A DNA stretch of 64,000 nt from Sphingobacterium sp. UBA7855. Its GTDB lineage: Bacteria; Bacteroidota; Bacteroidia; Sphingobacteriales; Sphingobacteriaceae. The notes below the pieces were generated by a model. The model was given only the letters and a program-made list of their open reading frames with translations. It did not search any database and was not told where the DNA came from. The stretch covers positions 1-64,000 of the forward strand of contig DLST01000018.1 of NCBI GenBank assembly GCA_002500745.1, written 5' to 3'. Positions 812-5,236 of this stretch are shown one piece after another (position 1 is the first letter of the stretch; each line of letters opens with the position of its first letter). The translations under genes and the position numbers were made by a program.

Positions 812-1210
812 TTAGTCCTTTTCATCAGTTTTAAAAACCCAAAAACGTTGAAGTGTATAGTTGAAGCCCAAAGAAACGAGCAACTCTACAACAAGTTTTG
901 AGAAAAGGAAATTCACATGATATACATCAACTAAAAAATGAATACCTGTAGACTTCAGTGCAATGCTACCACAAACAACAATCACAAATTTCCATAGTTG
1001 GCTTCCTACAGACTTTTGTGTGCTTCCAAACGACCAGTAGCGATTGATCAGAAAATTAACAATTGCTCCAAGGCTGCCGCTAATAGCATTAGAAAAAGGA
1101 GCACTGATATGAAGTAATTTATAGCACGCTGAGTATACCCCAAAATCAAACAAACCGCCTAAAAAGGCGGAAAGTTGCGCTTTTAAAAAAGTAACAAACT
1201 TGGAAGACAT
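812..1210 (-). CDS. GtrA family membrane protein
   Basis: A 132-aa protein with four predicted membrane segments and the usual family length. The GtrA signature is visible as NFLINRYWSF near residues 52-61 and NYTLQRFWVF near the C-terminus. GtrA proteins are thought to help move lipid-linked sugars or other polyisoprenyl-phosphate or lipid intermediates across the inner membrane. It is the last gene of the sphingolipid operon, 2 nt after the CDP-alcohol phosphotransferase, which suggests translational coupling. From position alone, it might help translocate a ceramide-derived or glycosylated lipid; no substrate can be read from the sequence. Confidence 0.85.
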   Translation of the reverse strand: MSSKFVTFLKAQLSAFLGGLFDFGVYSACYKLLHISAPFSNAISGSLGAIVNFLINRYWSFGSTQKSVGSQLWKFVIVVCGSIALKSTGIHFLVDVYHVNFLFSKLVVELLVSLGFNYTLQRFWVFKTDEKD

Positions 1211-1212
1211 CG

Positions 1213-1905
1213 TTAAATATTCTCCTCCTGCTGTTTCATCAATTTATCCTCTTTATCTTTTTCATCGCCCAATTTGAGAAGTAGGCGCGTATCATTTGCA
1301 TTAATTATAAATAGCGCAATACAAATTACAAGTACGCACCAATTAATGGATCCAGGCATTAAGACTTCGAAGAGCATGACTAATGAAATAACCACGCGGA
1401 TTTCAGTGGGGCCCAAAATCCCAGCATCTATTGTATACTTATCCGTAATTCTATACCTAAGCTGAGAAATAATCATTGCCCAACCATATAATGCCACTAA
1501 TGAAAAACCCAGGTACTTGTAATCTCCTACAGTGTAAAGCACATATCCCAGTCCAATGAAAACCGTACTGATCCAATCCATTACAATATCCAACGCAAAA
1601 CCGTACCACCGACGGGATTTATTCCGATAAAATGCGATCCGTCCATCCAATGAATCACCAAACCACTGCACAAAAAAACCAGGAATTCCTAGAAGTAAAT
1701 AACGGATATCAACGTATTCGGCCAGTATAAAACTTCCCAATATCATTAACGAACCTAGAAATCCGATGGCTGTAAGTCCATCAGAAGTAATCCAATTTGG
1801 GATTCGGGGAACGAGATACGAAATAAGCTTTTGTTCGGGTTCACTTAAGATATTTGTTCGCTTTCTATCCTGAAAAAGCTTTTTATTTATTTTTAACTCA
1901 CTCAT
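1213..1905 (-). CDS. CDP-alcohol phosphotransferase, candidate sphingolipid head-group enzyme
   Basis: A 230-aa membrane protein of the CDP-alcohol phosphatidyltransferase family, which transfers a phospho-alcohol between a CDP-linked donor and an acceptor using two metal ions. The catalytic pattern lies at residues 84-110: Asp84, Asp87, Gly88, Ala91, Gly102, Asp106 and Asp110 are kept. The position that is usually Arg after the conserved Ala is Phe92. All four metal-binding aspartates are present, so activity is plausible. About five hydrophobic segments surround the site. It lies between a ceramide reductase candidate (9 nt upstream) and gtrA. I infer that it makes the head group of ceramide phospholipids, such as ceramide phosphoethanolamine or phosphoinositol. 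A phosphatidylglycerophosphate-type role is the alternative. Confidence 0.8.
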   Translation of the reverse strand: MSELKINKKLFQDRKRTNILSEPEQKLISYLVPRIPNWITSDGLTAIGFLGSLMILGSFILAEYVDIRYLLLGIPGFFVQWFGDSLDGRIAFYRNKSRRWYGFALDIVMDWISTVFIGLGYVLYTVGDYKYLGFSLVALYGWAMIISQLRYRITDKYTIDAGILGPTEIRVVISLVMLFEVLMPGSINWCVLVICIALFIINANDTRLLLKLGDEKDKEDKLMKQQEENI

Positions 1906-1914
1906 TATCTGCTA

Positions 1915-2907: not shown

Positions 2908-4025
2908 AATGATTTTTGATACAAACGATAACGTTTGTACAATTCTCCATTCATTTGCTCAATCGCGTGGTTCATCATATAATTGTGCTCCAACATCCAT
3001 GAACATTCGGCCCCTTTAATATTGGAATCTTTTGATTCTTTTATAATTCGACCATATAAACACGCCTCAATACCTAGTTTACGGTAGTCTTCCAGCACCC
3101 CTAACATGAGTACGCGAAGCAAATTTATTTTTTTCCTTCCAAATAACAATTTAAAAATGCCCGTAGGAAGTAAACGACCCCGCTTCACCTTAATCAGGAT
3201 CTGGTTAATATCCGGTATGCCCAGGCCAAAACCAACAAGTTCACCGTCTTTCTCAGCTACGATAGCAAACCGAGGATCGAGGATCATTTTTAGATCCTTG
3301 GCTGTATAATTAAACTCGTCTTCAGTCATGGGAACAAATCCCGAATTTTTATCCCATGCTCTATTGTAAATATCACGAACCCTTGCCGCCTCATTTTTAA
3401 AATCTTTCACATTGAACTGACGCAAGGTGATCCCAGATCTTTTCAGACGCTCCTCCAGCCTATCCAAAAGCAATACAGAACGCTTATCAGCAGATTTCTC
3501 CATCACCAAATAAGCGCGTAAGTCCACTTTATGACCATAGCCTGAATTGGTAATTAGATCGATGTAATAGGGTGAATTATACGGCATCATAGCTACCGGT
3601 GGCATATCAAAGCCTTCAACCAATAAACCTACAGTGTCATTGGTAGATAAGTTAATCGGCCCCACAATCGTATCACCACCTTTTGCTTTCACCCATTTTT
3701 CTGCTGTTTCAAACAATGCATTTGCGACCTCCTGATCATCTATACAGTCGAAAAATCCCCATTGCCCCTCATTCACGTGATTAAAGGCGTTATGGTTATT
3801 ATTCCAGATTGCACAAATGCGGCCAACAATTTTATCGTTACGATAAGCTAGAAAAGGTTGTGCTTGAGAATGTTTATAAAAAGGATGCTTGTCAGGGGAA
3901 AGCAAATCGTTTTGTTCAAGAAATAAGGCCGGTACATAATTAGGATTTCCCTCATAAAGACTATGAGGGAAATCTATAAACAGCCGTCTTTGTTTCTTCG
4001 TTTCAACGGGTATAATCTGAATCAT
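2904..4025 (-). CDS. GNAT-fold acyltransferase, bacterial ceramide synthase candidate
   Basis: A 373-aa protein with an extended N-terminal region and a GNAT-like C-terminal half; the segment with VLEDYRKLGIEACLYGRI near residues 310-327 corresponds to the acyl-CoA-binding loop. It is about twice the length of an ordinary GNAT N-acetyltransferase, as is usual for the family found beside spt in Bacteroidetes. In Caulobacter a protein of this type (bCerS) N-acylates the long-chain base. It lies 11 nt downstream of spt and overlaps the reductase candidate by 4 nt, so the three are almost certainly co-translated. The ceramide synthase role is inferred from context. Confidence 0.82.
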   Translation of the reverse strand: MIQIIPVETKKQRRLFIDFPHSLYEGNPNYVPALFLEQNDLLSPDKHPFYKHSQAQPFLAYRNDKIVGRICAIWNNNHNAFNHVNEGQWGFFDCIDDQEVANALFETAEKWVKAKGGDTIVGPINLSTNDTVGLLVEGFDMPPVAMMPYNSPYYIDLITNSGYGHKVDLRAYLVMEKSADKRSVLLLDRLEERLKRSGITLRQFNVKDFKNEAARVRDIYNRAWDKNSGFVPMTEDEFNYTAKDLKMILDPRFAIVAEKDGELVGFGLGIPDINQILIKVKRGRLLPTGIFKLLFGRKKINLLRVLMLGVLEDYRKLGIEACLYGRIIKESKDSNIKGAECSWMLEHNYMMNHAIEQMNGELYKRYRLYQKSL

Positions 4026-4036
4026 ACGATTAGATT

Positions 4037-5236
4037 TTATATTAATGTTTCAACTTCAGCTTGTTTGAATACTTTAACCATCTTTTCAATAGCCTCGTCG
4101 ATTTGGTCATAAGTATGTGTCGCCATCAATGAAAAACGAATTAAAGACTCTTCAGCAGGAACTGCCGGAGAAACAACCGGGTTGACAAAGACGCCATCAT
4201 CTTGAAGCATTTTTGTTACCCAAAACGTTTTTTCATTGCTACGAATAAAGATCGGTAAAATTGGACTTTCCGTCGCACCTAGATCAAACCCATGATCCAA
4301 TAACTGTGCTTTGGCATAATCTGTATTTTTCCATAATTTTTCAATGTGCTCTGGCTCATTTTGAATAATTTCCAATGCTTTCAATGTTGAAGCTACAGAA
4401 GCTGGAGTCATTGAAGCGCTGAACATCACCGAGCGCGCATTATGTTTTAAGAAATCAATTACATCGGCATCACCAGCTACAAAGCCACCTAAAGATGCTA
4501 AAGATTTACTAAAGGTACCCATGATCAAATCCACATCGTCATTAAGCCCAAAATGCGAAGCCGTACCAGCTCCTTTGTGACCAATAACGCCTAAACTATG
4601 TGCATCATCAACCATTACTGCCGCATCAAACTCATTGGCAATAGCAGTAAGTTCAGGCAAATTAACAATATCACCTTCCATACTAAAGATACCATCCGTA
4701 CAAATTAACTTCGCACTATCCTCAGGTAGGCGAGATAACTTTGCACGCAAGTCCTCCATATTGTTGTGACCGTACTTAATTACCTTAGAAAAAGATAATC
4801 GACTACCATCAATAATAGATGCATGGTCGCGTTCATCTAATAAAATATAATCATTACGCCCCATGAGACAGGACAAAGGGCCAAGATTTGATTGAAATCC
4901 TGTACTAAAAAGAATAGCAGCTTCTTTACCCACATAAGCAGATAATTTTTCTTCCAGTTCTACGTGAATATCCAACGTACCGTTTAGAAAACGAGATCCA
5001 GCACATCCAGTACCATACTTTTCCAAAGCGTCTTGCGCTGCTTTTATAATACGTGCATCAGTCGTTAACCCTAAATAAGAGTTAGAACCAAACATCAATA
5101 CACGTCTACCATCGATTTTTACCTCGGTATCTTGTTTTGATTGAATAGGTCTAAAATAGGCATATAAGCCTTTAGCTTTCAACTCCTCAACAATCTTAAA
5201 TTGCGATATTTTTTCGCCTAACTTTCCTTTACTCAT
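4037..5236 (-). CDS. spt: Serine palmitoyltransferase
   Basis: A 399-aa PLP-dependent alpha-oxoamine synthase that condenses L-serine with palmitoyl-CoA to 3-ketodihydrosphingosine, the first committed step of sphingolipid synthesis. Lys244 in TFSKS forms the Schiff base with PLP, His138 (ERDHAS) stacks on the PLP ring, and DDAHSLG contains Asp210 and His213. These positions match what I recall of the soluble homodimeric S. multivorum enzyme. It has no membrane segment, unlike the eukaryotic enzyme. It is the first gene of a five-gene minus-strand operon. KBL and BioF are related, but the neighbours and the numbering support SPT. Confidence 0.97.
   Translation of the reverse strand: MSKGKLGEKISQFKIVEELKAKGLYAYFRPIQSKQDTEVKIDGRRVLMFGSNSYLGLTTDARIIKAAQDALEKYGTGCAGSRFLNGTLDIHVELEEKLSAYVGKEAAILFSTGFQSNLGPLSCLMGRNDYILLDERDHASIIDGSRLSFSKVIKYGHNNMEDLRAKLSRLPEDSAKLICTDGIFSMEGDIVNLPELTAIANEFDAAVMVDDAHSLGVIGHKGAGTASHFGLNDDVDLIMGTFSKSLASLGGFVAGDADVIDFLKHNARSVMFSASMTPASVASTLKALEIIQNEPEHIEKLWKNTDYAKAQLLDHGFDLGATESPILPIFIRSNEKTFWVTKMLQDDGVFVNPVVSPAVPAEESLIRFSLMATHTYDQIDEAIEKMVKVFKQAEVETLI

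Follow-up and report, generated by a model that had tools for sequence, protein, structure and literature searches.

A five-gene operon on the minus strand of a 64,000-nt stretch of DNA from Sphingobacterium sp. UBA7855 (contig DLST01000018.1, positions 1 to 64,000; here called the window) was analysed as a candidate sphingolipid locus. In order of transcription it encodes serine palmitoyltransferase (SPT; 4037..5236, 399 aa), a GNAT-fold protein of the YghO/CC_1154 family that is a candidate bacterial ceramide synthase (2904..4025, 373 aa), an epimerase-like short-chain dehydrogenase/reductase (SDR) that is a candidate CerR-like ceramide reductase (1915..2907, 330 aa), an atypical CDP-alcohol phosphotransferase-like protein that is a candidate head-group enzyme (1213..1905, 230 aa) and a GtrA family membrane protein that may be a lipid translocator (812..1210, 132 aa). 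We coined the label CDPwin for the window's CDP-alcohol phosphotransferase-like protein. An earlier note on this DNA had described five minus-strand genes with tight gaps or overlaps, and the window's list of open reading frames (ORFs) bears this out, with the coordinates given here and intergenic gaps of 11, -4, 9 and 2 nt in transcription order. The family calls in that note are also sound, as each protein scores over its Pfam or NCBIfam cut-off: SPT reaches 737.9 bits on the Bacteroidota-specific model NF047600 (cut-off 640), the GNAT protein 31.8 bits on PF00583 (20.7), the SDR 124.1 bits on PF01370 (20.9), GtrA 73.2 bits on PF04138 (26.1) and, just over the gathering cut-off of 22, CDPwin 22.8 bits on PF01066.

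This arrangement is conserved and not due to chance. The order SPT-GNAT-CerR-CDPwin-GtrA was mapped whole in the window, in G012 and in G001, the closest genome compared, which has 85% of the window's sampled words in common with it. In a family draw of 151 Sphingobacteriaceae genomes CDPwin lies within 8 kb of SPT in all 19 members of Sphingobacterium (the genus in the GTDB sense, here and below). CerR and GtrA both adjoin CDPwin in 30 of 30 Sphingobacterium loci with flanks, as determined by tblastn, and the CDP-alcohol gene is single-copy in 36/36 genomes of the genus, from which most of the named homologues listed for this protein also come.

Homology gives good support to the view, already proposed in the earlier note, that the first three genes form a ceramide core. 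NF047600 is matched over its cut-off in 64 of the 151 Sphingobacteriaceae genomes, and these are the same 64 genomes that have a GNAT protein of at least 53% identity, the two genes being adjacent in 63. The window GNAT protein is 36-37% identical over its full length to E. coli YghO-type sequences (36.4% over residues 1-373), and a figure legend in PMC9386255 gives YghO as the counterpart of CC_1154, which is required for dihydroceramide; the window protein was placed in the CC_1154 family by comparison with this E. coli counterpart. E. coli BL21 possesses an spt cluster of its own (PMC9386255). It is also 35% identical to a protein annotated as dATP pyrophosphohydrolase in a Roseomonas plasmid cluster that holds acyl carrier protein, SPT-like aminotransferase, fatty acyl-AMP ligase, epimerase and LptF/G-type genes, and on a Rubrobacter plasmid an SPT-like protein, a GNAT protein of this family and an SDR are consecutive. 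The window SDR is 32% identical to the SDR of the Rubrobacter cluster, 30% to that of E. coli and 23% to that of Roseomonas; its best NCBIfam model is HpnA, at 100.3 bits under a cut-off of 367.65. CerR is found in 19 of 25 mapped SPT loci, and is missing from five Olivibacter loci and from G077. In Sphingobacteriaceae the three ceramide genes are usually close together, in contrast to an earlier report that they were not close together in sphingolipid-producing Bacteroidota (PMC11334938).

Two side observations concern these families. GNAT homologues occur in 146 of the 151 Sphingobacteriaceae genomes, a second type, 27-34% identical, being present in at least 82 matching genomes without SPT. 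The sphingolipid-type cluster of a Roseomonas marmotae plasmid record (L117, 3158-17669) contains, together with its spt-like gene, acyl carrier protein, LptF/G and YghO-type protein, a diacylglycerol kinase family protein, a CDP-alcohol enzyme and an annotated phosphocholine cytidylyltransferase family protein.

CDPwin has the fold of the CDP-alcohol phosphotransferase superfamily by structure comparison. The family motif is given as DX2DGX2AR...GX3DX3D (PMC9246714), and CDPwin, in which the catalytic motif reads DSLDGRIAF-x9-GFALDIVMD (1576..1656, minus strand), keeps all four motif Asp and both motif Gly of the PF01066 signature. These six residues and the Glu of a GPTE sequence (1402..1413, minus strand) are invariant in alignments A1 (25 rows) and A3 (15 rows), the whole GPTE being constant in both. 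The nearest solved sequences are the choline/ethanolamine phosphotransferases CEPT1/CPT1, at a profile E-value of 1.4e-7, with AF2299 reaching only 0.33. Fold-based rankings of the subfamilies disagree, since Foldseek places CPT1/CEPT1 first and VIA-align places AF2299/IPCT-DIPPS and PIPS first. There is no match between CDPwin and NF052561, the model for BT_1523-type phosphatidylinositol phosphate (PIP) synthase, at E 0.01. Distant homologues, 33-36% identical, were seen on large plasmids of Novosphingobium, Sphingobium and Sphingomonas (L096-L100). In the four of these checked for the motif (L096, L097, L099, L100) the canonical Arg is retained and the third Asp is followed by His; the annotation of the five plasmid loci has no ceramide genes beside the homologue, and one locus has a VacJ-family lipoprotein and a glycosyltransferase nearby.

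CDPwin and GtrA form a module. GtrA directly follows CDPwin in 23/23 mapped loci of the window and Sphingobacteriaceae, in 8/8 Flavobacterium-genus loci from a phylum draw, and in 71 of 80 named loci (69 by ORF, 2 by tblastn), the nine loci without it all being in records named Bacteroidales, Bacteroidia or families of Bacteroidales. The module is found in the spt operon in Sphingobacterium, in Olivibacter, where it lies downstream of SPT in five loci, and in one Ferruginibacter metagenome-assembled genome (L164), where the order is SPT-GNAT-CerR-DUF5686-fatty acid hydroxylase-CDPwin-GtrA; we take Ferruginibacter to be a genus outside Sphingobacteriaceae. In Flavobacterium and relatives (L152-L162 and L076-L083) the order is SDR-PhyH-CDPwin-GtrA, usually with DUF4833, and the eight genomes drawn have no over-cut-off SPT. 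DUF4833 is also found fused to PIP synthase (L061, 13765-15045, and similar loci), and is a partner common to both CDP-alcohol enzymes.

At the SPT locus CDPwin-GtrA and an inositol module exclude each other. Taking MIPS within 8 kb of SPT as the marker of the inositol module, the 64 SPT loci of the family draw have CDPwin at that distance in 24 (19 Sphingobacterium and 5 Olivibacter), MIPS in 35, neither in 5 and both in none. The fullest locus of the inositol type (L071, G122 C1 1160000-1179900) reads SPT-GNAT-CerR-MIPS-PgpA-GtrA-DUF5686-PIPS/DUF4833 fusion-fatty acid hydroxylase-PAP2, and most other mapped inositol-type loci are without one or more of these genes. Less complete sets of these genes follow SPT-GNAT-CerR in several Bacteroidota genera (L058, L061, L062, L068, L089, L095), the BT_1523-type PIPS often being fused to DUF4833. 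Two PIPS proteins of relatives score 401.2 and 395.6 bits on NF052561 (cut-off 350), and the PAP2 protein scanned scores 329.4 bits on the PI-dihydroceramide synthase model, under its cut-off of 480. Judged by these matches, the inositol-type operon of relatives is one running from serine to inositol phosphoceramide (IPC), and is nearer than the window operon to the complete route announced in the title of the earlier note. In Olivibacter, CDPwin-GtrA is accompanied by the non-inositol genes of the inositol operon (fatty acid hydroxylase in 5/5 loci, DUF5686 in 4/5, DUF4833 in 4/5), so that the inositol part looks as if it had been replaced by CDPwin-GtrA, and the head group at the spt locus looks like an exchangeable module. 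The CDPwin tree groups Olivibacter with Arcticibacter (93/88, not starred), and in the SPT tree Olivibacter and Sphingobacterium share a clade (100/99) whose branching order is not resolved; CDPwin may have joined the spt operon once or twice.

Because of this exclusion we favour a head-group role for CDPwin and GtrA, and our tentative reading, which we rate at slightly less than an even chance, is an operon for dihydroceramide synthesis with a non-inositol head-group module attached. By analogy with characterised relatives, SPT would condense serine with an acyl thioester, the GNAT protein would N-acylate the product and the SDR would reduce the 3-keto group. Acylation before reduction has been proposed for Caulobacter (PMC11087976), and BT_0972 is reported as a 3-ketosphinganine reductase of Bacteroides thetaiotaomicron (PMC9278070). 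CDPwin, in the inner membrane, would then form a phospho-alcohol linkage from a CDP-activated substrate, in the simplest case converting CDP-X and dihydroceramide to phospho-X dihydroceramide, and GtrA would assist the product or a precursor across the membrane. What the comparisons establish is the identity of the genes, their conservation and the exclusion of the inositol module at the locus; each of these catalytic steps, the use of ceramide as lipid substrate, the nature of X and the translocation are inferred. In B. thetaiotaomicron, deletion of the GtrA-like gene BT_1524 is reported to lower inositol phosphoceramide and raise phosphatidylinositol (PI; PMC8791184), a phenotype that fits a supporting or transport role for GtrA. 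The earlier note had gone further in stating that the operon would encode the whole path. This is overstated, since the Pfam scan finds no MIPS, PgpA or PAP2-type transferase among the five genes, nor is there a gene that would supply an activated head group. Its proposal that the last two genes add and translocate the head group has positional support as regards a head-group role.

Inositol is unlikely as the head group of this operon. An inositol-lipid cluster of G001 lies elsewhere, about 2.8 Mb from the operon (L101, 5542-11282 on C1); its consecutive genes encode MIPS, an NTP transferase, a protein that no Pfam model hits, a second CDP-alcohol enzyme, a membrane protein of the LPG-synthase type and a HAD protein. 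MIPS is absent from 16 of the 19 Sphingobacterium genomes and found in 3, all 19 having CDPwin beside SPT. Because of these two observations, X is probably not inositol and the CDPwin-GtrA product is probably not inositol phosphoceramide. Ceramide phosphoethanolamine (CPE) occurs in S. spiritivorum. A thin-layer chromatography fraction of S. detergens was matched to ceramide phosphorylethanolamine (2025, PMC12724326), and attempts to disrupt spt in S. detergens E70 by several methods are reported to have been unsuccessful (PMC12724326). As CPE is the other phosphosphingolipid associated with Sphingobacterium, ethanolamine is our best guess for X, by default. The opposite view, that the operon makes inositol phosphoceramide with CDPwin as PI or IPC synthase, can point to a report of ceramide phosphoryl-myo-inositol in S. 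spiritivorum (PMC9246714) and to the inositol module that occupies the same position in other genera; with the separate cluster in G001, the retention of CDPwin where MIPS is missing and its failure to match the NF052561 model on which the PIPS of relatives score so highly, we consider it very improbable.

The strongest competing account has CDPwin use CDP-diacylglycerol to produce a phospholipid donor. CDPwin would then make a glycerophospholipid from CDP-diacylglycerol and a polyol phosphate, as PIP synthase does, and its gene would belong to the operon either because ceramide later receives the head group of this lipid, in the way that PI serves BT_1522, or simply for co-regulation. We hold this to be a real possibility, though a doubtful one, because the five genes include no PAP2-type transferase or PgpA phosphatase, MIPS is missing from most Sphingobacterium genomes and the CDPwin profile favours CEPT1/CPT1 over AF2299. 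It is also conceivable, and in our view quite unlikely, that CDPwin has lost its catalytic activity or binds lipid as a partner of GtrA, the pair being a transport unit rather than an enzyme. The loss of the motif Arg and of the CEPT-type His from CDPwin would agree with this, as would the pairing with GtrA in all mapped Sphingobacteriaceae and Flavobacterium-genus loci, but a dead enzyme need not keep the four Asp, both Gly and the GPTE Glu invariant.

Several observations weigh against our main reading of the operon. Some concern the protein and its substrates. The Arg of DGxxAR is replaced by Phe in the window and by Tyr or Phe throughout the clade shown, a departure from the canonical motif, and the residue after the third motif Asp in this clade is Ile, Val or Phe, not the His of the CEPT1/CPT1 alignments. 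For the first of these reasons we call CDPwin phosphotransferase-like; as judged by fold and score it is related to PF01066, and it lacks the canonical signature. As said, the operon has no gene for the donor. Three Sphingobacterium genomes give 15 PF01467 matches, and the three CTP-transferase-like proteins scanned from among these are far under the cut-offs of their nearest models; the neighbours of these three small proteins resemble sugar-nucleotide genes. Others concern the setting. The Olivibacter SPT loci mapped have no CerR nearby. In 27 named loci of Flavobacteriaceae CDPwin stands beside PhyH (27), SDR (25) and DUF4833 (26), and 19 Pedobacter loci have SDR and PhyH in 11 and DUF4833 in 3. 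In Bacteroidales records it is mostly found amid unrelated genes (YicC, guanylate kinase), once with DUF5686; three Dysgonamonadaceae records are counted under 'other' in the grouping of the named loci. A search of 393 Bacteroidales-order genomes, made for CDPwin alone, gave 41 CDPwin matches at E <=1e-30, of which 20 are strong (E <2e-94), one is partial (3e-69) and 20 lie between 2e-36 and 4e-31.

The remaining points against this reading come from the co-occurrence of CDPwin with SPT, which the earlier note had offered as a check and which gives a divided answer. Among 41 Sphingobacteriaceae carriers of CDPwin in the 151 genomes, 8 have no SPT, and none of the 8 Flavobacterium-genus carriers drawn has an over-cut-off SPT. 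A draw of 395 Bacteroidota genomes contains 12 strong CDPwin carriers (and 4 weak ones) and 18 over-cut-off SPT carriers, with only 3 shared, all from the genus Sphingobacterium. On the favourable side stand the 24 SPT loci with CDPwin close by, and in the 132 family genomes outside Sphingobacterium CDPwin and SPT occur together in 14, CDPwin alone in 8, SPT alone in 31 and neither in 79 (Fisher p 0.0025, not corrected for phylogeny). In some lineages, therefore, CDPwin is linked to the SPT locus, but it is not a dedicated sphingolipid gene. In the phylum and Bacteroidales draws, where at most 7 candidates were scored per genome and the lists mostly omit genomes without a match, the SPT-bearing genome G431 of family f31 had no CDPwin match in the Bacteroidales-order search, the single f31 match there was weak (5.3e-34), and the 16 CDPwin matches of the 395-genome draw include none of the four f31 genomes that carry SPT. 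Bacteroides species make phosphoethanolamine-dihydroceramide, including all species tested in one comparison cited in a review (PMC10191378). For these two reasons CDPwin is probably not a general CPE synthase, and we do not favour it as one for Bacteroidota.

Each of the 16 genomes checked that carry CDPwin but no SPT has a GNAT match of 29-32% and an alpha-oxoamine synthase of 414-440 aa with 32-35% identity to SPT, a pair that is presumably of the sulfonolipid type. A sulfonolipid link for these carriers was rejected as non-discriminating, given the near-universal GNAT match noted above.

Overall, the arrangement is real and conserved, the ceramide core is well supported and the head-group role is plausible. 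A more specific form of the proposal is that CDPwin-GtrA is a head-group cassette whose enzyme, from a diverged CDP-alcohol phosphotransferase-like clade, acts on ceramide directly with a CDP-alcohol donor, that is, a bacterial phosphoethanolamine-ceramide synthase unlike the AUR1 type, which replaces the inositol cassette at spt and serves another long-chain lipid in Flavobacterium and some Bacteroidales; we regard this as rather unlikely in its entirety. In the open-licence literature we found no paper naming a bacterial ceramide phosphoethanolamine synthase and no description of a CDP-alcohol/GtrA pair in an spt operon. Physically linked to the ceramide genes in every Sphingobacterium genome tested, and placed where relatives have the inositol module, the probable head-group gene offers a compact candidate, open to experiment, for the addition of a non-inositol head group, and the presence of CDPwin or of the inositol module at the spt locus may serve as a genomic predictor of head-group type. 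Apart from this subject, two records labelled as plasmids may be mislabelled chromosomal pieces, one of 46 kb from Bacteroides finegoldii with aspS and lon (L119) and one from E. coli with the glc operon (L120).

Among known systems, the ceramide and CPG2 cluster of Caulobacter and Rhodobacteria (CC_1168-CC_1152) shares with the window spt, a CC_1154/YghO-type acyltransferase and an epimerase-like reductase (PMC11324152, PMC9386255), and differs in having acpR, aasR, ceramide kinase and nucleotidyltransferases, all of them absent from the window operon. In Caulobacter the CDP-alcohol-type domain protein CC_1159 is reported to take part in head-group formation and to be needed for CPG2 (PMC11324152), which by analogy makes a head-group role for CDPwin plausible. 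BLASTP gives no significant similarity between CDPwin and the CDP-alcohol protein of the Caulobacter-like Roseomonas cluster (E 0.69). Eukaryotic CEPT1/CPT1 are the nearest solved sequences and share the fold of CDPwin, but CDPwin has neither the motif Arg nor the His that follows the third Asp. Alongside them, insect ceramide phosphoethanolamine synthase is a close known system. A search of B. thetaiotaomicron with the fly CPE synthase is reported to have given no match (PMC8791184). The BT_1522-1526 cluster of that species is similar in combining a CDP-alcohol enzyme and a GtrA-like protein in one cluster and in building the head group on dihydroceramide (PMC9246714, PMC8791184); it differs in that its CDP-alcohol enzyme is of another subfamily, that MIPS, PgpA and an AUR1-type synthase are in the cluster, and that spt (BT_0870) lies outside it. 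The alternative inositol cluster described for B. vulgatus (section 10 of PMC9246714) is resembled by the G001 cluster far from the operon. The Sphingobacteriaceae inositol operons (L071 in G122, L058 in G156 and L061 in Arcticibacter G078) differ from the window in going on to MIPS-PgpA-GtrA-DUF5686-PIPS/DUF4833-fatty acid hydroxylase-PAP2, and have in common with it the SPT-GNAT-CerR core and the GtrA family.

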